Source: Pseudomonadota bacterium (lineage in GTDB: Bacteria; Pseudomonadota; Alphaproteobacteria; SHVZ01). From it: a stretch of DNA of 64,000 bases. The stretch covers positions 62,001 to 126,000 of the forward strand of contig JACQAG010000031.1 of NCBI GenBank assembly GCA_016195085.1, written 5' to 3'. Of the stretch, positions 7,859 to 58,526 are shown one piece after another. Under the pieces are notes generated by a model. That model was not told the DNA's origin, did no database searches, and was given only the letters and a program-made list of their open reading frames with translations. A program made the position numbers and the translations under genes. Position 1 is the first letter of the stretch; each line of letters begins with the position of its first letter.

Positions 7859-9427
7859 CTATGCTAGGCCGAACTTGCTGAACAGCACCCGCTGCCCGTC
7901 CGGCGAGAGCGCCGGTTTGATGCCGTTGCGGCACAACGCGGCGCTGACACCATGGGTCAGGAACACGTAGGACCCGGATTCCTCCATCAGCGTCTGCATG
8001 CGCTGATACATCCGGTCGCGCTTGGCGCGATCTTGCTCGCTCAGCGCGGCGACGTGCAGATCGTCGAACTCCTTGCTGCTGAGCCGCTCCCAGTTCCATT
8101 CGCCGATTTGGCTGGTGACGTACCAGGCCGTGGCCCATGAGGGATCGGGCTGCATGCTGAAGCGCACGATGTGCAGGGCCATCTTTTTCCACCCGCCGCT
8201 CTTGTCGCTGGCCAGCGCCTTTTGGGCACCGGCATCGAAGGGGGTGACTACGGCGGTGATGCCGATTTGGGCGAGGCTGGCGGCAACGACTTGGGCGGCG
8301 CTAATGAACTCCGCCGAGTTGCGCACGCCGATGTCGGTCTTGAAGCCATTGGGATAGCCGGCCTCGGCCAGCAACTGCTTGGCCTTGGCGAGATCCGGCT
8401 TCTCCACCAGATTCCGCGGGCGATGGCCGATGAGACCGGGCGCAATGACGCCCGTCGCTCGAGTGACGGCCCCAAAGAAGGCGCCTTCCAGCACGGAATC
8501 CACATCCACCGCGAGTTGAACGGCCTTGCGCACGCGGATGTCCTTGAAAATTCCATCTTCGCTTTGCATGCCGAGCCACCAGAAGGCGAGCGACGGTTTG
8601 ACGATCAGCGTGGATCCGGTCGGGGGCTTTGCCTTGAGCCGAGGAACCGCGGAGGCGGGTAGTTGCGGCGTGAAATCGAGCTCTCCCGCTTGATGGGCCA
8701 CTTCCGCCGCATTGGCATCGACGATGCTGATGTAGTGGATCTCATCGAAGACCGGCTTGGGACCGGTCCACAGCGGGTTGCGTTCGAGAATGACGATCCG
8801 GCGTGTCTCGAATTTCTGAATCCGATAGGGCCCGGAGACGGCGGGGACCGACGTCGTGATACGCTGGCCGTCCAGCTTCTCCACGGCCTTCTTGCAGAGG
8901 ATCACCCCGGAGCCGGACGGCAGCGTCGACTCCCACAGCGGCATGAACGGCTCTTTCATCACGATCACGCCGGAATGGGTGCCGGTGACCTCCACCTTGT
9001 CGAGCTTTTCCCAATCCACGCGATAGGCGGCCTTCATGTCCGGATTGGCGATCCGCTCGTAGGAGAATTTGACGTCTTCCGCCGTCACCTCGCCGAATCC
9101 ATTCGACCAGGCGATGCCCGGCTTCAGCTGAAAGCGGATGTGGGTCGGCGATTCCTGAACGATCTCGGTTGCGTACTCCTTCTCCCAGCCCCACTCGTCT
9201 CCGGCCTTGACGGTGATGAGGCCGCCGCAAAGGCAGCGCATGATGTCGTCCTCGATCGCTCCGAGGCGGTTCGCCGGGTCAAGGATTCCGGGATTCCCAT
9301 AGGCGCGAACACGAAGAACCTTGGTCGATTGCGCGAGGGCATTGGTGTTCGGCGACAATCCCGCCAAGGCGCCGGCTGCGGTGCCGGTTTGCAGGAAGCG
9401 CCGCCGAGATAGGGTGTTCCACGACAT
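7859..9427 (-). CDS. ABC transporter substrate-binding protein, family 5 (peptide type)
   Basis: A 522-residue extracellular solute-binding protein of the DppA/OppA class. The N-terminus has a twin-arginine signal (SRRRFLQTGTAAGALAG) and cleavage near ALAQ. Typical family 5 segments follow: LCGGLITVKAG, VTAEDVKFSYERIANP, DIRVRKAVQLAVDVD, and AKQLLAEAGYPNGF. GGGAGGA five bases before the ATG supports the start. It would bind peptides or another small solute in the periplasm. The oligopeptide-type ATPases at 13868-16119 are plausible partners, but the gene is separated from them and no DppB/DppC permease is present in the window. Confidence 0.9.
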   Translation of the reverse strand: MSWNTLSRRRFLQTGTAAGALAGLSPNTNALAQSTKVLRVRAYGNPGILDPANRLGAIEDDIMRCLCGGLITVKAGDEWGWEKEYATEIVQESPTHIRFQLKPGIAWSNGFGEVTAEDVKFSYERIANPDMKAAYRVDWEKLDKVEVTGTHSGVIVMKEPFMPLWESTLPSGSGVILCKKAVEKLDGQRITTSVPAVSGPYRIQKFETRRIVILERNPLWTGPKPVFDEIHYISIVDANAAEVAHQAGELDFTPQLPASAVPRLKAKPPTGSTLIVKPSLAFWWLGMQSEDGIFKDIRVRKAVQLAVDVDSVLEGAFFGAVTRATGVIAPGLIGHRPRNLVEKPDLAKAKQLLAEAGYPNGFKTDIGVRNSAEFISAAQVVAASLAQIGITAVVTPFDAGAQKALASDKSGGWKKMALHIVRFSMQPDPSWATAWYVTSQIGEWNWERLSSKEFDDLHVAALSEQDRAKRDRMYQRMQTLMEESGSYVFLTHGVSAALCRNGIKPALSPDGQRVLFSKFGLA

Positions 9428-42413: not shown

Positions 42414-44189
42414 TCAATCCCCCAGCGCAACGCCTTCACGCCTGGGGTCGGCGCCGCCCAGGAGGCCGGTGCGGGTGACTGCGATGCCATGCAGCCCGCT
42501 GGTGAATTCGCTGATCCGCGTCTCGTGGCCCATCGCCTTGAGGGAGGCGGCGAGCGCCGGCGCCGTGCTCGCCGTCTCGAGCTCGGTCACGCTATTGCGG
42601 CTGCCGACCAGCGGCAGGTCGATGGCGGCTTGGATGTCGTAGCGCCAATCGGCCCAAGCGACGATCGCCTTGGCAACGTAGTTGATGATGGCGCTGCCGC
42701 CGGGCGAGCCGATGACCATCGCCAAATGGCGGTGGCGATCGAAGAGGATGCTGGGGCTCATGGAGCTGCGCGGCCGCTTCGAGGCTTCGACGCGATTGGC
42801 CACGGGCTTGCCATCCTCGACCGGCGCGAAGGAGAAGTCCGTCAGCTGATTGTTGAGGAGAAAGCCGCGGACCATCAGACGCGAGCCGAACTGGTCTTCG
42901 ATCGTCGTCGTCATCGACAAGGCATTGCCGGCATCGTCGACGATCGACATGTGGCTCGTGGACGGAAGCTCGAGCGCATCGTCGTTGCCCCAGAGCCGGC
43001 CGGCGAGAAGCGGCGGCTGGCCGGGTGCGGCGCGTTTCATGCTGGCGTCGGCTCGAATGAGCCGGGCTCGGCTTTTCAGGTAGGCGGCATCGATCATCCC
43101 TCTGACCGGAACGGCGACCACGTCCGGATCGGCGATGTAGAGACCGCGATCGGCATAGGCCAGACGCTCGGCTTCCGAGAGGAGATGCGCGGCCGCGACC
43201 GATGGCGGCTTCAGCGGTTTCAGCGCGAAGCCATCGAGAATGCCCAAGATTTGCAGGAGCGTGATGCCCCCCGAACTGGGCGGCCCCATGCCGCAGATCT
43301 CGTAGCGGCGATAGGGTCCGCAGACGGCAGGCCGTTCCTTGGCGCGGTACTCCGCGAGGTCGGCCAGTGTCAGGTCGCCGGCATTGGCAGCCTCGCGCAC
43401 GGTCCGCACCATGTCGGCGGCGATCGGTCCGGCGTAGAACGCCTCGGCTCCGCCTTTGGCGATGGCGGAGAGGGTCTCGGCCAGCGCGGGGTTCGCAAGC
43501 CGCGTGCCGACTGCTTTGGGCGCGCCGTCGGGGTTGTAGAAATAGTCCTTGGCGGTGGGCGATTTCGGCAGATGGGCTTCGTCCTTCAGGAGCCCGTACA
43601 GCCTGGGCGAGATGGCGAACCCCTCGGTTGAAAGCCGAATCGCCGGCTCGAACAGCCTGGCCCAGGGCAGCCGCCCATGCGCCTTGTGCGCCATCTCCAG
43701 CATTCTGAGAACGCCCGGCACGCCGACCGAGCGGCCGCCGACGACGGCGTCATAGAAGCGCATGGGCTTGCCGTCGGCACCGAGGAAGCGGTCGGGCTTG
43801 GCCGAAGCCGGTGCCGTCTCGCGTCCGTCATAGCTGGTGATGCGCTTCTCCCGCGCCGACCAATAGACGATGAAGGCGCCACCGCCGATTCCCGAGGATT
43901 GCGGCTCGACCAAGTTCAGCACCATTTGCGTGGCGATCGCCGCGTCGATGGCGCTGCCGCCTTGGCGCAGCATGGCGCGGCCGGCCTCGGCCGCCAGCGG
44001 ATTGGCGGCGGCGACCATGTGGTGCTTGGCTCTGGCGAGCGTCTTGGTCGTGGCGCCGGTGGCGGCATCCGGCGCCTGGTTCTGGGCAAGCGCTGGCGCC
44101 GGTAGGCCCGGCGTCAGCACCAAGCAGACGAGGGTGAGAAGGCGTGCCGAAAGAGGGCAGGTTTTGATCATGACCATGAGTTTAGCCAT
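42414..44189 (-). CDS. ggt: Gamma-glutamyltransferase (glutathione hydrolase)
   Basis: A 591-residue Ntn-hydrolase precursor. It has a signal peptide (LLTLVCLVLTPGLPAPALAQ), the large-subunit landmarks NPLAAEAGRAMLRQGGSAID and SSGIGGGAFIVYW, and the donor-site arginine in DGRETAP. The autocleavage/nucleophile threonine is Thr411 in PSTSHMSIVDDAGNALS, and GSPGGSAIINYV lies in the small subunit. It would cleave gamma-glutamyl bonds of glutathione or related compounds in the periplasm. Three in-frame ATGs lie close together (44189, 44177, 44171). The first is listed; the third gives the most typical signal peptide. Confidence 0.92.
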   Translation of the reverse strand: MAKLMVMIKTCPLSARLLTLVCLVLTPGLPAPALAQNQAPDAATGATTKTLARAKHHMVAAANPLAAEAGRAMLRQGGSAIDAAIATQMVLNLVEPQSSGIGGGAFIVYWSAREKRITSYDGRETAPASAKPDRFLGADGKPMRFYDAVVGGRSVGVPGVLRMLEMAHKAHGRLPWARLFEPAIRLSTEGFAISPRLYGLLKDEAHLPKSPTAKDYFYNPDGAPKAVGTRLANPALAETLSAIAKGGAEAFYAGPIAADMVRTVREAANAGDLTLADLAEYRAKERPAVCGPYRRYEICGMGPPSSGGITLLQILGILDGFALKPLKPPSVAAAHLLSEAERLAYADRGLYIADPDVVAVPVRGMIDAAYLKSRARLIRADASMKRAAPGQPPLLAGRLWGNDDALELPSTSHMSIVDDAGNALSMTTTIEDQFGSRLMVRGFLLNNQLTDFSFAPVEDGKPVANRVEASKRPRSSMSPSILFDRHRHLAMVIGSPGGSAIINYVAKAIVAWADWRYDIQAAIDLPLVGSRNSVTELETASTAPALAASLKAMGHETRISEFTSGLHGIAVTRTGLLGGADPRREGVALGD

Positions 44190-44242
44190 GGCCGATGCGT
44201 CCCGTCATCCAGCCATCCTCGGGGTCATGTTACTCTCCCTCC

Positions 44243-50436: not shown

Positions 50437-53318
50437 GCGCGCCGGCCTCGGAACCAGGCGCCGTAGCGGAGCTTCGTCGGCGGCGGCACCATGCCCGGCG
50501 GGCGCGGCAGGGCCTGGAAGTCCGGCTCCGTGGTCGGCGGCTCGCCCGCACCTGCCTTCTCGATGCGCACCTTGAGATCATACCAGGCGGCCTGACCGGT
50601 CACCGGATCGGCATTGGCATAGCGGTAGAATCCGTCCCGCTCCGGCAGGAGCTCGGAAATGACGTGGTTGAGGAGGAACCCTGTCGTCGCCTCCGGCGCG
50701 TCTTGTGCGAGATTCCACGCACCCCGGCGCTTGCCCACCGCATTCCAGGTCCACACCGTGTCGGGGTTGACGCCGTCCATCAGCTTGACCTGGCCCTTCA
50801 CCCTACCGTGGTGGCTTTCGATCCACACCCAATCGCCGTCGGCGAGCCCCATTGCCTCGCCCCGCGCCCGCTCGAGGTAGAGCGGGTTCGTGCCATGGAT
50901 CTGCCGCAGCCAGGCGTTCTGCGAGCCCCAGGAGTGATACATCGCCATCGGCCGTTGGGTGATGGCGTGGAAGGGAAAGCGCCTTCCGTCCACCAGCGCC
51001 TCCTCGAAGGGCTCGTGCCAGAACGGCAGCGGATCGAAATACTCGGCCACGCGCCGGCGATGCGCCTCGGGGGGCTGCACGCGCCCGTGGCCTTCCGCGG
51101 CCAGCCGGAACCGCTGCAGGGGCTCGCTATAGAGCTGCAGGATGATCGGCGCCTCGGAGCCGATGAAGCCGAGCCGCTTGGCGAAGGCGAGGTATTCCCT
51201 GTTGACGTGCTTGTAGTAGCGCAGCTCCTCGGGCAGCTCGTGGCGGAAGAAGCAGCCATTCTCGATATAGCGCCGGACCTGCTCGGGATTGGGCGCGCCG
51301 GCGCCGACCTCGTTGCCGCTGGGCCCGCGCCAGCCGGCCAAGAGGCCGATGCCGGGGGCCCGCTCGTGATTGGCGATGTAGTCGGCATAGAGCCCGGGAT
51401 AGCGGGGCGTTCCATCCTCGCGCACCAAGCCTGGAAGCTTGAGCCGCTGACCGAGATCGATGAGCACGTCCTGGAAGGGCCTGACGTCGCGATCGGGTTC
51501 CACCACCGGCTGGCGGATGGCGTCGGCGAGCCCGTCGGCGTCGCTGATCGGCCGATCCAAGAGCGAGATGCAGTCATGGCGCTCGAGATAAGTGGTGTCC
51601 GGCAGCACCAGATCGGCGTAGGGCACCATCTCGGAGAAATACGCATCGGAATAGATGATGCGCGGGATCTTGTAGGTGCCGTCCGGGCCCTTGTCGGTCA
51701 GCATGGCAAGCGTGCCCGGCACGTTCATCGCCGAGTTCCAGCCCATGTTCGCCATGTAGAGAAAGAGCGTGTCGATCGGGTAGGGCTCGGCCTTCCAGGC
51801 CTGCAGGATGACCTGCTGCAGAAGCCCATGGGCGGCGAGCGGCGCCTCCCAGGAGAATGCCTTGTCGAGCCGGCAGGGCGTGCCGTCAGCCAGGACCAGA
51901 AGATCCTCGGGGCCCTGGGGAAATCCCAGGGGCGGACCCTTCATGGCGCTCGAAGGCGCCACCTGGTCGGGCCTGCCGGCGGGCTTGACCGCCGGCGGTG
52001 CGGCCTTCGGATAGGGCGGCTTGTAGCGGAAGCCGCCGGGCACGTCGATCGAGCCCAGCAGGATCTGCAGGAGGTGCAAGGCCCGGCAGGTGTGGAAGCC
52101 GTTGGAATGCGCCGAGATGCCGCGCATGGCGTGCAGCGAGACCGGGCGGCCGATCATTGTCGCATGCCGCTTGCCGGTCCAATCGGTCCAAGGCTGGTCG
52201 AGCACGATCTCCTGCTGGAAGGCGGCATGGGCGAGCTCGGCCGCGAGCCGCTTGATCGTCGCCGCCGGCACGCCGGTCGACGCCGCCACGCGGTCGGGCG
52301 CATAGCGATCGTCGAGATAGCGCCCGGCCATGAGCTGGAAGACCGGAACCGCACGCCGTCCGTCGCCGAGCCGACGCTCGCCCGCGAGCGCCGGCTGGAT
52401 CTCGCCGGCAAGCGCATCGGCAAGGCGACCCGCACCCATGTCCCAGACCAGCGGGCGGCCATCGCCATCGCGGGCGAAGAGGCCGTGATCGGCGCTACCG
52501 GGGTCTTGAATGACAAGCCAGGGCGCGTTGGTGTAACGCCGGAGATAGGCGACGTCGATCGCATCGGCGGCCAAGAGCTCATGGATGAGCGCCAGCACCA
52601 GGAGTCCGTCGGTGCCGGGGCGGATGCCGATCCATTCATCGGCGATGGCGGAATAGCCGGTGCGCACCGGGTTGATCGAGACGAATTTCGCGGCGCGCTC
52701 CGGCGGACGGGATTTGAGCTTGCCCAAGGCGAGCTTCAACGGATTGGAGGCATGGTCCTCGGCCACCCCGAAGAGCATGAAATAGCGTGTGTGCTCCCAA
52801 TCCGGCTCGCCGAACTCCCAGAACGAGCCGCCGATGCTGTAGAGCCCGGCGGCGGCCATGTTGACCGAGCAGAAGCCGCCATGGGCGGCGTAGTTGGGCG
52901 TGCCGAAGGCGCTCGCCCACCAGCCGGTCAAGGCTTGGCTCTGGTCGCGCCCGGTGTAGAAGGCCAGACGGCGGGGATCCTGCTCGCGGATCTGGCCGAG
53001 CCAGCCCGTGGCCAAGGCGAGCGCCTCCTCCCATTCGATCTCCGCAAATTCGCCCGAGCCGCGCGGGCCCACGCGCTTCAAGGGCTTCGACAGCCGCGCC
53101 GGCGACAGGTGCTGCATGATCCCGGCCGAACCCTTGGCGCAGAGCACGCCCCGGTTCACCGGGTGGTCGCGATTGCCCTCGATGTAGCGGATGCTGCCGT
53201 CCTTGAGATGCACGCGGATGCCGCAGCGGCAGGCGCACATGTAGCAGGTCGTGGTCTTGACCGAATCGGAGACGGCGGGCGACAGCTCGATGTGTTCGGC
53301 GGGTGCCAGCCAGCTCAC
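50433..53318 (-). CDS. soeA: Molybdopterin oxidoreductase, probable sulfite dehydrogenase SoeA
   Basis: A 961-residue bis-MGD enzyme of the DMSO-reductase family. The N-terminal [4Fe-4S] site is Cys25, Cys28, Cys32 and Cys60 (TTTCYMCACRCGIRV ... GVLCAKG). The middle has GGFCSVNMAAAGLYSIGGSF, NPVRTGYSAIADEWIGIRPG and PYADLVLPDTTYLERHD. No Tat signal is seen, so it is cytoplasmic, as known for SoeA. The start is GTG at 53318, overlapping the usp stop; the 107 open codons before it are shadow. With SoeB/SoeC and the neighbouring TauE-type exporter it most likely oxidises sulfite to sulfate. Another sulfur substrate is possible. Confidence 0.82.
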   Translation of the reverse strand: MSWLAPAEHIELSPAVSDSVKTTTCYMCACRCGIRVHLKDGSIRYIEGNRDHPVNRGVLCAKGSAGIMQHLSPARLSKPLKRVGPRGSGEFAEIEWEEALALATGWLGQIREQDPRRLAFYTGRDQSQALTGWWASAFGTPNYAAHGGFCSVNMAAAGLYSIGGSFWEFGEPDWEHTRYFMLFGVAEDHASNPLKLALGKLKSRPPERAAKFVSINPVRTGYSAIADEWIGIRPGTDGLLVLALIHELLAADAIDVAYLRRYTNAPWLVIQDPGSADHGLFARDGDGRPLVWDMGAGRLADALAGEIQPALAGERRLGDGRRAVPVFQLMAGRYLDDRYAPDRVAASTGVPAATIKRLAAELAHAAFQQEIVLDQPWTDWTGKRHATMIGRPVSLHAMRGISAHSNGFHTCRALHLLQILLGSIDVPGGFRYKPPYPKAAPPAVKPAGRPDQVAPSSAMKGPPLGFPQGPEDLLVLADGTPCRLDKAFSWEAPLAAHGLLQQVILQAWKAEPYPIDTLFLYMANMGWNSAMNVPGTLAMLTDKGPDGTYKIPRIIYSDAYFSEMVPYADLVLPDTTYLERHDCISLLDRPISDADGLADAIRQPVVEPDRDVRPFQDVLIDLGQRLKLPGLVREDGTPRYPGLYADYIANHERAPGIGLLAGWRGPSGNEVGAGAPNPEQVRRYIENGCFFRHELPEELRYYKHVNREYLAFAKRLGFIGSEAPIILQLYSEPLQRFRLAAEGHGRVQPPEAHRRRVAEYFDPLPFWHEPFEEALVDGRRFPFHAITQRPMAMYHSWGSQNAWLRQIHGTNPLYLERARGEAMGLADGDWVWIESHHGRVKGQVKLMDGVNPDTVWTWNAVGKRRGAWNLAQDAPEATTGFLLNHVISELLPERDGFYRYANADPVTGQAAWYDLKVRIEKAGAGEPPTTEPDFQALPRPPGMVPPPTKLRYGAWFRGRRA

Positions 53319-53809
53319 GTGACGGCGTCCACTTGCTCGTCCGTGAGGTCGCCCGGAACGATGGTGATCGGCACCTTGACCTTGCCGGCACCCTTGCCGG
53401 TCAGATAGGTCACCAGCGGGCCGGGTCCTTCCGGCCCGGTGCTGGCCGCCAGCACCAGGATGGAGATGCTGGCATCCTCGCCCAGCATCTTCACCACCTC
53501 TTCGCTGCGCGTACCCTCGCGCAGCTGCACGACCGGGATCTGCCCGGAGATGCGGTTGACGATCTCCGACAGCCTTTGCAGCGTCGCCTCCGCTTCCTGG
53601 CGCTTTTCGTCGCGCATGATCTCGCTGACGCCGCTCCAATGCTGGAACTCGACGGGCTCCTGCACATAGAGCAGCACCACGCGGCCGCCGGTCGCCTTGG
53701 CGCGACGGCTGGCGTAGCGAATCGCCACCGACAGCTCGGGGCTGTCGTCGACGACCACGAGGAACGTCCGGTCGTGGCGCGGGGGCGGCGCAACTGGCGT
53801 AGTGCTCAT
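53315..53809 (-). CDS. Universal stress protein (UspA family)
   Basis: A 164-residue Usp-domain protein: FLVVVDDSPELSVAIRYASR at the start, VVLLYVQEPVEF, then the ASISILVLAASTG and KVKVPITIVPGDL strands. The classical ATP-binding G-2x-G-9x-G(S/T) loop is only partly recognisable (STGPEGPG). It sits within the sulfite cluster between the TIGR02186 gene and soeA, overlapping soeA by four bases, so it is probably made with the enzyme. Its specific job is unknown. Confidence 0.87.
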   Translation of the reverse strand: MSTTPVAPPPRHDRTFLVVVDDSPELSVAIRYASRRAKATGGRVVLLYVQEPVEFQHWSGVSEIMRDEKRQEAEATLQRLSEIVNRISGQIPVVQLREGTRSEEVVKMLGEDASISILVLAASTGPEGPGPLVTYLTGKGAGKVKVPITIVPGDLTDEQVDAVT

Positions 53810-53827
53810 GGGTTCGGGCTTCGCCTT

Positions 53828-54571
53828 TCAGCTCCGGCGGAAGGCCAGGCTAGCAAGATATCCTGCCACTACCGCGATCGACACGGCAACGAGTCCATAA
53901 GCCATGGAAAGCTCTTGGGCAAAGTCGTAGATCTCCGCGCCGACGCCGATCTTGCTGATGAGGAGCGGTGTGGTCTGCGCGCTCACCACCTGCCCATCGC
54001 GCACGAGATAGACCTGCGCCTGATAGGTTCCGGTCGCCACATTGGCCGGGAAGGAGATCTTGGTGCGGAACAGCTGCTCGCCCAGAAAGGTGACGCGGGC
54101 AGCATCGGCGACGTAGAGCCCTTCGCGCTGCTTGTTGCGCACGAGGGCGGCGCGAAACTCCGGTAGATCGTCGCGCTGCGCTTCCGGATTGGGCGGAAGC
54201 AGCCGCAAATGCTCGAGGCCGAGCTGGTAGCGATCCAAGAGGCTCGGCTGCAGGATGTCGTCGATCGGCTTGCTGGATGCCAGCGCGTAAAAGGACGGCG
54301 CCTCCTCGAACGCCATCTCCTGCCGGTTGATCCAGACGCCGAAGAACCTTCCCTTGCGGCGGACCACCACAGGCCGCGACGGCCCGCTGACGACGACCAC
54401 CACCTCGCCTGGCCCGTCGGTGGCGCCGAACATGACGACTTCGGCCCCGGTGAAGCCGGCGGTGATCGCCACCAGGTGATCGGCGAGATCGGCGACCAAG
54501 GGCTGCGCCGGCGCGGGTCCTGGGGCAAGAATGAGAGCCATGGCGGCCAGCGCTGCGAGAGGCAGCCTCAC
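53828..54571 (-). CDS. TIGR02186-family membrane-anchored protein
   Basis: A 247-residue protein with a signal peptide (VRLPLAALAAMALILAPGPA, GTG start), a beta-rich exported domain (LVADLADHLVAITAGFTGAE, VVVVSGPSRPVVVRRKGRF, GVWINRQEMAFEEAPSFYAL) and one C-terminal membrane helix (YGLVAVSIAVVAGYLASLAF). This layout matches the TIGR02186 family, which is repeatedly found beside TauE/SafE exporters. Its GTG overlaps the tauE stop (GTGA). It may work as a periplasmic partner of the exporter; no biochemical role is known to me. Confidence 0.8.
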   Translation of the reverse strand: MRLPLAALAAMALILAPGPAPAQPLVADLADHLVAITAGFTGAEVVMFGATDGPGEVVVVVSGPSRPVVVRRKGRFFGVWINRQEMAFEEAPSFYALASSKPIDDILQPSLLDRYQLGLEHLRLLPPNPEAQRDDLPEFRAALVRNKQREGLYVADAARVTFLGEQLFRTKISFPANVATGTYQAQVYLVRDGQVVSAQTTPLLISKIGVGAEIYDFAQELSMAYGLVAVSIAVVAGYLASLAFRRS

Positions 54572-55488
54572 GACAGCAGCATCACGGCGACGGAATAGCG
54601 GTCGGCAGGCGTCACCATGAGGTCGAACGCGAGCTTGAGGCAGACGACCAGCACGGTGACCGCGAGCAGCCCGCGTAGCTGCTCGCCCCTCAGCCGCGAG
54701 CCGATCCTGGTGCCGATCTGCGCGCCGATGACGCCGCCGATGATGAGAAGAAAGGCGAGCACCACGTCGACCGCCTGGTTCTGCCAGGCCTGCAGGAAGG
54801 TGATGGCGCCGGCGACGAACACGATCTGCAGGAGCGAGGTGCCGACCACCATCGCGGTCGGCATGCCGAGCAGATAGATCATCGCCGGCACCATGAGGAA
54901 GCCGCCGCCAACACCCATGATCGCCGTCATCAGCCCGATGCCGAGACCGAGCGACAAGGGCAAGAGCGCGCTGATATAGAGCCGCGATTTGCGGAAGCGC
55001 ATCTTCAGCGGCAATCCATGCAGCCAATTGTGCTGATGCAGCCGGCGCGGCTTGCCGCCGGAGCGCGCCAGCCGGAGATAAGTGCGGATGCTCTCCTGCA
55101 GCATGAGCAAGCCGAGCGAGCCCAGGAGCACGACATAGGTGAAGGAGACGACGAGGTCGATGTGTCCCAGCCGGCGGAGCACGCCAAACAGCCACACGCC
55201 GAAGCCGCCGCCGACCAGGCCGCCGCAGAGCAGCACCAGCGCCATCGGCACATCGACGTTGCCGCGGCGCCAATGGGCAAGCGCGCCGGAGAACGACGCG
55301 GCGACGATCTGATTGGACCCGGTTGCGACCGCCACCGGCGCCGGCACGCCGATGAACAGCAAGAGCGGCGTCAGGAGGAAGCCGCCGCCGACACCGAAGA
55401 CGCCCGAGACGATGCCGATGAGCCCGCCGAGACCGACGACGAGAATAGTGTTCACCGAAATTTCGGCGATCGGCAGATAGACGTGCAT
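54568..55488 (-). CDS. TauE/SafE-family sulfite/organosulfonate exporter
   Basis: A 306-residue inner-membrane protein with about eight helices and the two family repeats GLIGIVSGVFGVGGGFLLTP and GLMTAIMGVGGGFLMVPAMI, each with a GVGGGF motif. The family exports sulfite, sulfoacetate or sulfolactate. It is the first gene of the minus-strand cluster that continues with TIGR02186, usp and soeABC, so removal of excess cytoplasmic sulfite is the likely role. Confidence 0.87.
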   Translation of the reverse strand: MHVYLPIAEISVNTILVVGLGGLIGIVSGVFGVGGGFLLTPLLLFIGVPAPVAVATGSNQIVAASFSGALAHWRRGNVDVPMALVLLCGGLVGGGFGVWLFGVLRRLGHIDLVVSFTYVVLLGSLGLLMLQESIRTYLRLARSGGKPRRLHQHNWLHGLPLKMRFRKSRLYISALLPLSLGLGIGLMTAIMGVGGGFLMVPAMIYLLGMPTAMVVGTSLLQIVFVAGAITFLQAWQNQAVDVVLAFLLIIGGVIGAQIGTRIGSRLRGEQLRGLLAVTVLVVCLKLAFDLMVTPADRYSVAVMLLS

Positions 55489-55575
55489 CGGGCCTGAGTG
55501 TTGAGCCGCTGGGGCCGCGCGAGGGCCGGCATTTTGCGCCGAACGCCGGCGAAGCGCAAACGTCCGTGGGGGTGG

Positions 55576-55596
55576 GGAGCCCCGGCCGCGGGCTCC
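55576..55596. terminator. Hairpin downstream of the first MGRC-type gene
   Basis: GGAGCCC (55576-55582) pairs with GGGCTCC (55590-55596) over a seven-base loop, about 35 bases after the stop of the minus-strand gene at 55632-56348. A second possible stem, GCCGGCA...TGCGCCG, lies nearby at about 55526-55545. No T-run follows, so activity is uncertain. Confidence 0.35.
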
Positions 55597-55631
55597 TGGG
55601 CTAAGAGTCGGCTCCGCGGATTAGCGACCGC

Positions 55632-56348
55632 TCAATCCTCATCCTCGCCGCCCTGCCGGCGCGGCCGGCCCGCAGCGGGCGGCAACCGCACCTCCAAGAC
55701 CGGCTGGATGACCGTCGACACGGCTTGCTGGGTGGCGGACTGCGCCGGGATGCGCTGCGGCCGCCAGCGCGGTGCCGCGTCGTAGAGCGCCTGCTGCTCG
55801 CGCGCGATCCAGGCGGCCAACCCGTCGACGTCCTCGCGCGTCATCTGTGTCTCGCGCGCTTCGAGCTCGATCCAGAGGTTGTTGAGGCGCATCAGGCGCT
55901 GGCGGCCGACCGGCATCGCCTCGACCTCGGCCATCCGCTCCTTGCCCCAGGCGATGGTGACGCTCCGCGCCGTCTGCGCCTCGCGGACGACACCCTGCAG
56001 GCGCTCCAGCTTGTCGGGCGGCAGGATGCCATCGCCCGGGCCGCAGCGTTTGGAGAGCTCTTGGATCCGCTGGAAATCCGCGCCGGTCAAATCGGCGAGC
56101 CGCTTGCCGTAATAGACGAGATCGAGGCTGCGCGGCGACAGCGGCGCCGGCAGGTCGGCGATCGGACCGACCGGCGCCTTGCCCCCCGGCAGGAGCTTGC
56201 AATCGGCTTTCTTTCCCGCGTTGAGCGGGGGAGCAGGGGGCGGCAGCGCGATGCCCGGTCTGGGCGGCTGGCTCAGCGAGCCTTGCGCCGCCGCCATCTC
56301 TGGCGAAGCCAGCAGCAAGATCAGCCCTAAGGCGAAGCACCGACCCAT
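55632..56348 (-). CDS. Secreted protein of unknown function, paralogue 1 of a tandem pair
   Basis: A 238-residue exported protein: MGRCFALGLILLLASPEMAA signal with cleavage near AAAQ, a Pro-rich linker, then a helical domain (about 48-190). The domain contains LLPGGKAPVGPIADLPAPLS, PRSLDLVYYGKRLADLTGAD, FQRIQELSKRCGPGDGIL and QMTREDVDGLAAWIAREQQA. A basic, Pro-rich tail ends it. Two mature cysteines (Cys50, Cys102) may form a disulfide. I do not recognise the family. It is closely related to the equally long protein encoded just upstream (56521-57237), clearly a tandem duplication. Confidence 0.78.
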   Translation of the reverse strand: MGRCFALGLILLLASPEMAAAQGSLSQPPRPGIALPPPAPPLNAGKKADCKLLPGGKAPVGPIADLPAPLSPRSLDLVYYGKRLADLTGADFQRIQELSKRCGPGDGILPPDKLERLQGVVREAQTARSVTIAWGKERMAEVEAMPVGRQRLMRLNNLWIELEARETQMTREDVDGLAAWIAREQQALYDAAPRWRPQRIPAQSATQQAVSTVIQPVLEVRLPPAAGRPRRQGGEDED

Positions 56349-56520
56349 GGTCCGTTCCGCATCCCAACGGGATGGAGCATTTTATATCAATATTTGCTGC
56401 GTTTGCGCTAGTCTCCCGCCGCTGAAATTCGACCGCGAACTTCGGAATCATCACACAAGATGGTTGAGCCGCACCGGAGCCGTTCGCGGGGTGCCGACCA
56501 TCGATACCAGCTCCGCTCCC
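56349..56520. other. 172-base space between the two MGRC-type paralogues
   Basis: This holds the 3' flank of paralogue 2 and the likely promoter of paralogue 1 (both minus strand). It contains an unusually AT-rich stretch for this genome, with ATTTTATATCAATATTTGC near 56377-56395, which would suit a promoter. No clear terminator hairpin is visible. Paralogue 1 may therefore be transcribed separately from paralogue 2. Confidence 0.45.
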
Positions 56521-57237
56521 TCAACCCTCCTCGCCGCCGGGCTTGCGGGGGCGCGCCGGCGGCGGGGGGCCCGCCGGGCCCGGTGCCGCCTGCAGGGCTG
56601 CCGCCGGCTGCCCCGCCCCCGTCTGGGCGGCTGTTGGCGGTGCTGTTGGCGGCAGGGTCGCCCGCTGCGCCGGACGCTGACCGGGTGCTGCGTCGTAAAG
56701 CGCCTGCTGCTCGCGGGCGATCCAGGCGGCAAAGCCGTCGACATCCTCCCGGGTCATCTGCGACTCATGCAGGCTGAGCTCGGTCCAGAGCTCGTTGAGC
56801 CGGGTCAAGCGCGCCCGCCCGACGGGCAGCGCCTCGACTTCGGCCATGCGTTGCTTCGCCCAAGCGATGGTGCCGCCGCGCGTCTTTTGCGCCTCGCGCA
56901 CCACGCTCAGCAGCTTCTGCAGCTTTTCTTCGGAGAGGATGCCCTCGCCCGGTCCGCATTTCTGCGACAGCTCGCCGATGCGCTGGAAGTCCGCCTCGGT
57001 CAGATCCACCAGGCGCTTGCCGAAATAGATCAGGTCCAGGCTGCGCGGGGACAAGGGCGTGGCCACGTCGGCGATGTGGGCGACCGGCGCCTTGCCCCCC
57101 GGCAGCAAGGCGCACTCGCCGGTGCGGAGCGGGGCGGCTTGCCCGGGCCTCGGCGGTTGCGCCGGGGGGGCTTGCCCCAGCGCCGCCGGCGTTCCCAGCA
57201 AGGCGAGCAGCAACGCCATGAGGAGGCATCGACCCAT
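56521..57237 (-). CDS. Secreted protein of unknown function, paralogue 2 of a tandem pair
   Basis: A 238-residue exported protein with signal MGRCLLMALLLALLGTPAAL and the same mature core as its neighbour: LLPGGKAPVAHIADVATPLS, PRSLDLIYFGKRLVDLTEAD, FQRIGELSQKCGPGEGIL and SQMTREDVDGFAAWIAREQQ. The cysteines at 42 and 94 correspond to those of paralogue 1. The Pro/Ala/Gln-rich tail differs most between the two. The start at 57237 is chosen because only it gives a signal peptide matching paralogue 1; the frame is open 217 codons further, through hutI, as shadow. Function unknown. Confidence 0.78.
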   Translation of the reverse strand: MGRCLLMALLLALLGTPAALGQAPPAQPPRPGQAAPLRTGECALLPGGKAPVAHIADVATPLSPRSLDLIYFGKRLVDLTEADFQRIGELSQKCGPGEGILSEEKLQKLLSVVREAQKTRGGTIAWAKQRMAEVEALPVGRARLTRLNELWTELSLHESQMTREDVDGFAAWIAREQQALYDAAPGQRPAQRATLPPTAPPTAAQTGAGQPAAALQAAPGPAGPPPPARPRKPGGEEG

Positions 57238-57308
57238 CGATTCGATCCGAGCCTGGTTGCAGTGGCTGGAAACTCGGAAGACGGTCTCGCCGCCTTCGCC
57301 TGGCAATT

Positions 57309-58526
57309 CTAGCGCAAGACGCCGCCGCCCCGCACCACCTGGTAGAGGGGATTGAAGCTGATGCGGTAGGCGAGCTCCGCCGGCCGCTCGACATCCCAGA
57401 GGACGAAATCGGCCGCCTTGCCGGCTTCCAGCGTGCCGCATCGGGCTGCCAGACCCAGCGCCCTGGCGCCGTTGCGGGTGACGCCGGCCAAGGCCTCCTC
57501 CGGGGTGAGGCGGAAGAGGGTGCAAGCCATGTTGAGCACCATGAGGATCGAGGTCATGGGTGAGCTGCCGGGATTGCAGTCGGAGGCGAGTGCCATCGGC
57601 ACCTCGAGGCGACGCAGGAGGTCGATCGGCGGCACTTTGCTCTCGCGCAGGAAATAGTAGGCGCCCGGCAGCAGCACGGCGACGCTGCCGGCCTCTTTCA
57701 GATCCGCCGCCCCCTGCTCGGAGAGGTGCTCCAGATGATCGGCGGACAAGGCCCCGAAACTGGCCGCGAGCGAGGCGCCGCCCTGGTCGGAGAGCTGCTC
57801 GGCATGCAGCTTGACCGGCAGGCTCAGCCGCCGCGCCGCCTGGAACATTCGCCTGGTCTGCGCCGGGCTGAAGGCGATCCGCTCGCAAAACGCGTCGACC
57901 GCGTCGACGAGATGCTCGGCCGCCGCCGCCGGCAGGACCTCTTCGGCTTGGAAGTGGATGTAGTCATCGGCGCGGCCCTCGAACTCCGGCGGCAGCGCAT
58001 GGGCGCCGAGAAAGCTGGTGGAGACGGTGATACCCGATTCCTGGCCCAGCTTGCGGGCGATCTGGAGCATGCGGATCTCGGTCGGCCGATCGAGGCCGTA
58101 GCCGCTTTTGATCTCGATGGTGGTGACGCCCTCCGCCATCAGCGCCTGCAGCCGACGCCGGGCACTCGCCAAGAGGGTTGCCTCGTCGGCGGCCCGGGTC
58201 GCCGCCACGGTCGAGCGAATGCCGCCGCCGGCGCGCGCAATGTCTTCATAGCTCGCACCTTGCAAACGGAGCTCGAATTCCCGGGCGCGATCGCCGCCAT
58301 AGACGAGATGGGTGTGGCAATCGACGAGGCCGGGGGTGATCCAGCGCATTCGCGCATCCATGACCGTGCGCGCCAACCTTTCGGGAGGCCCCGTGAGCTC
58401 CGCGCGGGCACCGACCCAGGCGATGCGGCCGCCCTCGACCGCGATCGCGCCATCGGCGATCTCGCCATAGGGCCGCCCCGGCACCATGGTCGCCAGCCGC
58501 GCATTCAGCCAAATCGCATCCCACAT
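57309..58526 (-). CDS. hutI: Imidazolonepropionase
   Basis: A 405-residue amidohydrolase-superfamily enzyme with metal site [20 protein letters not shown], substrate-loop [47 protein letters not shown] and the aspartate in [12 protein letters not shown]. These are the standard HutI landmarks and the length is normal. It hydrolyses imidazolone-5-propionate to N-formimino-glutamate, step three of histidine breakdown. It is divergent from hutF with only 43 bases between the starts. The genes for steps one and two (hutH, hutU) are not in the window. Confidence 0.94.

Follow-up and report, generated by a model that had tools for sequence, protein, structure and literature searches.

The window, meaning the whole stretch of 64,000 nt analysed here, contains two adjacent genes on its reverse strand, W2 and W1, which lie between hutI and a gene for a TauE/SafE-type exporter (Table 1). 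A preliminary description of this DNA had reported two neighbouring genes of 238 residues whose products both begin with MGRC, and the open reading frames are confirmed at these positions, each starting with ATG. Core motifs had also been said to be shared by the two proteins, and QMTREDVDG and WIAREQQALYDAA are indeed present in both translations. The two genes are separated by 172 bp, and their setting between a sulfite cluster and histidine genes is as it had been described, with hutI and hutF on one side and TauE, Alph_Pro_TM, Usp and a molybdopterin oxidoreductase set on the other. A sigma-70-type scan of positions 55450-57400 yielded no promoter, and the single terminator-like site in this interval lies on the opposite strand and is at chance level. 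The neighbouring genes for Alph_Pro_TM (PF09608) and TauE/SafE (PF01925) share the strand of W1 and W2, and the Alph_Pro_TM protein resembles W1 and W2 in having a leader-like start, as judged by eye. However, W1 and W2 belong to different families from these proteins and match neither model. The grouping of TauE with Alph_Pro_TM, a universal-stress protein and the molybdopterin oxidoreductase set (53315-55488, reverse strand, in the window) is common to the window and to the loci of gene copy b in the sister genus g2, which is considered below.

Table 1. Features of the tandem pair and of the two genes that flank it, in window coordinates.
Feature	Coordinates	Strand	Description	Basis
hutI	57309-58526	-	Imidazolonepropionase-type amidohydrolase; 71 bp upstream of W2	Pfam Amidohydro_1 and HUTI_composite_bact
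W2	56521-57237	-	Upstream copy, 238 aa plus stop, probably exported; adjoins hutI	ORF, translation, family alignments
W2 signal-peptide-like segment	57175-57237	-	Residues 1-21, then Gln22	Hydrophobic window and family A-Q site, by eye
W2 conserved region	56686-57114	-	Residues 42-184: Cys42 to Cys94 segment and helices 103-136, 141-160 and 163-183	AlphaFold2, dN/dS
W1	55632-56348	-	Downstream copy, 238 aa plus stop, probably exported; adjoins tauE	ORF, translation, W2 match
W1 signal-peptide-like segment	56286-56348	-	Residues 1-21, then Gln22	Hydrophobic window, family alignment
W1 conserved region	55773-56201	-	Residues 50-192 (Cys50, Cys102)	Translation, codon comparison, family alignment
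tauE	54568-55488	-	TauE/SafE-type exporter; 143 bp downstream of W1	Pfam TauE, 2.9e-48

W1 and W2 are members of a small, lineage-restricted alphaproteobacterial family that is absent from the libraries searched. The preliminary description had recognised no known domain, and our searches agree, as neither protein had a Pfam or NCBIfam match at E 10, and the single PHROGs match, for W1, was at E 0.84. When 24 family members were compared with Pfam and NCBIfam, matches were confined to one or two members each, with a best E-value of 0.00051 in one member. The PDB sequence search brought up weak matches to the coiled coils of SNAP-25 and CueR (best E 0.041), which we attribute to helix composition and disregard. 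Relatives were detected in 11 of 142 genomes of a set of relatives using a single-protein query and in 13 of 385 genomes of the class using a 13-sequence profile, the window's genome being counted both times, and in 2 of 398 genomes of the phylum using a 24-sequence profile, namely the window's genome and G112. A single-protein scan of a genome-contig collection gave no match, and an alignment scan of this collection gave 11 loci, all in metagenome-assembled genomes. The matches of W2 (4.6e-66) and W1 (2.2e-64) to family profile A3 arise by construction, as both sequences are rows of that profile. No relative of W2 or the G403 protein was found among plasmid records at E 0.001. The literature that our search brought up concerned sulfur metabolism, which does not show that the family is unpublished.

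The family gene is common only within a few taxonomic families. These are f1, to which the window belongs (7 of 7 genomes), f107 (31 of 36, one of them with a fragment), f135 (4 of 4), f122 (2 of 2) and f96 (1 of 1). Comparison of single and paired occurrence, which had been suggested earlier, is informative in this respect: outside f1, matching genomes carry one family gene at most, counting two adjoining matches in G414 as pieces of one gene, and six of the seven f1 genomes carry two.

To define the conserved features of the family, 51 sequences were extracted with script-chosen start codons, and 49 were aligned after two G400 pieces of one broken copy were dropped; G414, among the 49, looks frameshifted near its end. 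In W2 numbering, Cys42, Leu67, Leu76 and Cys94 are identical in all 49 sequences, W1 and W2 included, each of Tyr71, Lys74, Asp83 and Tyr181 in 48, and Asp165 in 47. The two cysteines that had been singled out in the tandem pair are thereby invariant across the aligned members. They correspond to Cys50 and Cys102 of W1 and are spaced by 52 residues in both proteins, and a third cysteine, Cys4 of W1 and W2, is not among the conserved columns of the 49-sequence alignment. Of the 49 proteins, 48 have a hydrophobic stretch at the N-terminus, the exception being G230, whose start is uncertain. At the likely cleavage site, A is found in 45 proteins and Q in 46, and W2 itself reads G-Q. The signal-peptide-like starts reported for W1 and W2 are thus borne out by hydrophobic stretches, as read by eye. 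The family protein is likely periplasmic, judging from the hydrophobic N-terminus and the A-Q motif, and on this sequence basis the earlier term "periplasmic" stands as a likely location but not as an established one.

Structure prediction, which had been proposed as a check on the helical core, is in line with these features. The AlphaFold2 model of W2 built from a 24-sequence alignment has a mean pLDDT of 79.1 and a pTM of 0.62, with blocks of residues 61-180 scoring 81-98, and it contains a helix at residues 81-94 in addition to the three long helices listed in Table 1. An earlier model from 13 sequences shows nearly the same elements. The architecture of the family can be summarised as a signal-peptide-like N-terminus, two invariant cysteines, a compact region whose last part is predicted to form three long helices, and a tail that varies between members. 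Foldseek comparison of both models with the PDB returned nothing at E 0.001 or better and, the second model included, no match below E 1. VIA-align gave best Z-scores of 8.3 and 7.9 for the two models, mostly from superpositions of 50-80 residues, within the helical part, with bundles that are unrelated, and with a few rows of 100-123 residues at an rmsd above 4; in the second round of fold searches mainly residues 116-187 were covered, so that the Cys42-Cys94 segment was barely tested. Generic three-helix bundles of the PDB (5yij, 2rkk and 2bq0) superpose on 63-71 residues of the W2 helical part with Z-scores of 7.0-7.9 and rmsd values of 2.7-2.9. Given that Z-scores of this size are common for helical bundles, we claim no relationship to these structures.

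A search of the window's own genome (G000, 4.8 Mb in 95 contigs) with W2 returned, besides W2, only W1 (62% identity, E 3e-74) at a threshold of E 0.001. The alignment of W1 and W2 spans 229 codons and contains 140 identical residues. The pairwise dN/dS is 0.26 for the core (W2 residues 42-184), 0.92 for the signal-peptide part and 0.69 for the Pro-rich tail, and the conserved region has a dS of 0.70 and a dN of 0.18. The core of W1 and W2 is under purifying selection. Selection on the pair, as proposed in the preliminary description, is supported by this core value, and the relaxed selection (dN/dS near 1) that was to be looked for does not appear there. The equal length of the proteins is true of both genes but carries no significance, because insertions in the linker and the tail cancel out over the 229 aligned codons; we therefore rejected it as evidence of anything. 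The synonymous difference (ps) ranges from 0.24 to 0.72 per 20-codon window and lies mostly between 0.35 and 0.65; it is high along most of the alignment, in which there is no long near-identical tract.

The history of the pair was examined in a tree of the 49 proteins, in which W1 and W2 form one clade (support 96/88) with end branches of 0.48 and 0.24, respectively. Because W1 and W2 are mutual closest relatives, their duplication or homogenisation postdates the split from the sister genus g2. The earlier suggestion that two long-separated functions have been kept is not supported by this relationship. In g2, copy b occupies the same locus as the window pair, from hutI to TauE, in six of six genomes, and copy a lies elsewhere in the genome in five of the six. 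The gene order is hutI-b-rhodanese-tauE in g2 as opposed to hutI-W2-W1-tauE in the window. Copy b follows hutI after 14-15 bp in each of the six genomes, and in the five that were measured its end is overlapped by the rhodanese frame; a tblastn search for this rhodanese in the window gave a best E-value of 1.4. Topology tests disfavoured placing either protein singly with the b copies (p-AU 0.027 for W1 and 0.026 for W2) and were borderline for the pair with the b copies (p-AU 0.065). None of the groupings with the a copies was rejected, with p-AU values of 0.173 for W1 alone, 0.177 for W2 alone and 0.499 for the pair, and copies a and b were joined in one clade with a support of only 54/39.

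The duplication of W1 and W2 looks real, local and lineage-specific rather than ancient. Local duplication after the split from g2 is the simplest history, with gene conversion as the alternative. In the latter case, the tandem would be old, W1 and W2 would have been homogenised by gene conversion, and copy a of g2 would be a relocated member. Such a history is compatible with the common locus of the window pair and copy b and with the unrejected groupings of W2, W1 or both with the a copies. Nevertheless, we consider it unlikely, given the support for the W1 and W2 clade and a synonymous difference that is high along most of the alignment and leaves no long near-identical tract. It is more doubtful still that the duplication mainly serves dosage, with W1 drifting. 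The end branch of W1 is twice that of W2, and the signal peptide and the tail evolve freely, both of which would agree with drift. A neutral copy, however, would be expected to have a dN of about 0.35 on its own branch, if half of dS is taken as the guide, in contrast to the core dN of 0.18 for the whole pair, and the cysteines and core motifs are intact in W1 as well as in W2.

Outside f1, the family gene has a strongly conserved neighbour. At 29 of 37 loci, the gene immediately upstream is on the opposite strand and belongs to the gamma-glutamyltransferase family (PF01019); this gene, here called Ggt-like, and the family gene stand head to head. The divergent gaps measured at 28 of these loci from script-chosen start codons are 53-154 bp, the twenty-ninth locus being that of G400, where the family gene is broken by stops. 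At four further loci, all in f135, one gene lies between the family gene and the Ggt-like gene, with gaps of 1072-1732 bp; in G140 this intervening gene appears by eye to encode a class IV aminotransferase. Counted by genus, the linkage is direct in 11 and has one gene between in 1 of the 14 genera outside f1. No other neighbour in the stretches fetched is kept as well as the Ggt-like gene. The clusters that come after it comprise 22 and 15 genomes, and the 22-genome cluster is by position an opposite-strand frame within the same Ggt-like gene. The Ggt-linked family proteins are 22-32% identical to W2. PF01019 is a neighbour of the family in most lineages outside f1 rather than its parent family, as W1 and W2 do not match this model.

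The linked enzymes differ from the Ggt of the window. Five Ggt-like proteins tested against TIGR00066 scored 257-289 bits, under the cut-off of 357.85, as compared to 402 bits for the window's Ggt. In the G112 enzyme, a Thr aligns with the N-terminal residue of the mature small subunit. This enzyme has other residues at the positions that read R-E and P-(L or R)-S-S-M in the window's Ggt and in 2e0w, the solved Ggt of E. coli; these positions presumably bind the gamma-glutamyl group. By eye, no hydrophobic leader is evident in the printed start regions of the Ggt-like enzymes, G101 excepted, where the earliest start adds a short hydrophobic stretch; the rows of G112, G404 and G399 in this check are without a start. 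Divergent regions are alike within genera. Of the 28 measured regions, 26 were read by eye, all but those of G419 and G392, and as they showed no operator common to genera, a shared operator was rejected. In G400, the family gene at approximately 8409-8996 on the reverse strand of L124 is interrupted by stops and the divergent Ggt-like gene is open, indicating that the exported partner can decay first. Fifteen genomes of f107 and f96 also have additional genes beyond the divergent pair in common, two of which, shared by G112 and G101, look by eye like an AmmeMemoRadiSam protein B and its radical SAM partner.

The linkage has clear exceptions. It is absent in f1 (7 of 7 genomes, the sister genus included), where W1 and W2 have hutI and TauE and no head-to-head Ggt-like gene beside them, and at four loci outside f1 (G127, G230, G407 and G408). 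The closest Ggt-like genes of the window's genome lie on contigs C60 and C26, and in f1 and f122 the closest such genes are on different contigs from the family genes. G407 likewise has both genes on different contigs. Both genomes of genus g277 carry the Ggt-like gene but lack a family match. In G408 (84% complete), the family gene is present and Ggt-like matches are distant ones only (best E 1.9e-29, none at 1e-40). In f107, genomes G305 and G216 (1.5 Mb) have neither gene, the Ggt-like gene of G394 is cut by a contig end, and G418 has a family-gene fragment and a weak Ggt match only. The window does contain a Ggt gene, at 42417-44078 on the reverse strand, about 11 kb from W1. Its product has a leader, as judged by eye, and belongs to another subfamily, being 26-37% identical to the divergent Ggt-like proteins where BLAST aligned them. 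G000 holds about 12 gamma-glutamyltransferase-family loci in its 4.8 Mb (16 matching pieces), on contigs C8, C12, C26, C31, C38, C39, C48, C60 and C61, with one of them at 42417-44204 on the reverse strand of the window and one C39 copy having a stop within the match; the sister genomes have 18-32 matching pieces each. With so many loci in the genome, the nearness of the window's Ggt may be due to chance, and we rejected it as proof of linkage. In g2, a Ggt with a leader-like start is encoded on the same strand as copy b, and the two starts are about 8.3 kb apart in the five genomes whose stretch reached it.

The support for a pathway role of the family is circumstantial and comes from the Ggt-like and aminotransferase neighbours elsewhere and from hutI, rhodanese and TauE in f1. 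As read from sequence and gene context, the family protein may be a non-catalytic periplasmic protein for binding or as an adaptor in the scavenging of amino-acid or gamma-glutamyl compounds, a role that we propose tentatively and that is somewhat unlikely as it stands. The protein would be exported through Sec, and its two cysteines would form a disulfide in the periplasm. There it would act as a small binding or adaptor protein, and in most other lineages it would be co-regulated with the Ggt-like gene from their common divergent intergenic region, with a cytoplasmic Ggt-like Ntn-hydrolase processing the imported compound. In f1, the gene stands instead beside hutI and the sulfur gene set, and in the window's genome its duplication gave two similar proteins with diverged tails, which may provide dosage or slightly different tails. 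The broader proposal, which we regard as rather unlikely in full, pairs this exported, disulfide-bearing helical family, as a conserved divergent companion, with a Ggt-like Ntn-hydrolase subfamily whose substrate site is altered. The two would form a joint uptake-and-hydrolysis module for an amide or gamma-glutamyl-like compound, the exported half of which, in the window's lineage, would have moved beside genes for histidine and sulfur and been duplicated.

It is a real possibility, if short of an even one, that the family consists of general cell-envelope or stress proteins and that its neighbours (Ggt-like, hutI, rhodanese and TauE) represent an old gene order that is functionally meaningless. 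The neighbours do vary by lineage, some copies lie elsewhere (the a copies, G127 and G230), and g277 and G408 each keep one of the two genes without the other. In addition, the longer synteny in 15 genomes, which includes other genes, indicates that old gene order persists in this group. What an inert gene order accounts for less well is the divergent Ggt-like neighbour itself, which is found at 29 of 37 loci, or 33 with the one-gene gaps, when the other clusters reach 22 genomes at most, and which has held across divergence down to 22-32% identity with W2. This linkage could also be taken to mean that the family protein is a direct physical partner of a Ggt, such as a chaperone, inhibitor or activator, in which case the Ggt at 42417-44078 would be the partner in the window. 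Ggt-like genes do adjoin the family in most other lineages, and a Ggt with a leader-like start lies about 8.3 kb from b in five sister genomes and about 11 kb from W1. We consider such a partnership very unlikely, however, as the adjacent Ggt-like enzymes mostly have no hydrophobic leader and the family protein has one, and as the window's Ggt is of another subfamily in a genome where Ggt genes are plentiful. Direct contact between the two proteins is unlikely given that the enzyme looks cytoplasmic and the family protein exported. This separation, together with the exceptions to the linkage and the lack of a common operator in the regions read, also weighs against the proposed scavenging role.

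Our analysis turns two orphan genes into a defined family with 49 aligned members, invariant residues, a core model and a strongly conserved neighbour. This definition, together with the conserved neighbour, makes the function of the family testable in genomes where the divergent pair is intact. The finding is real but modest, with one strong genomic lead in the linkage to Ggt-like genes. If the module reading is false, W1 and W2 would represent an ordinary lineage-specific duplication of an exported protein. If it is true, it would indicate that a Ggt-like hydrolase of several alphaproteobacterial lineages has an uncharacterised substrate.
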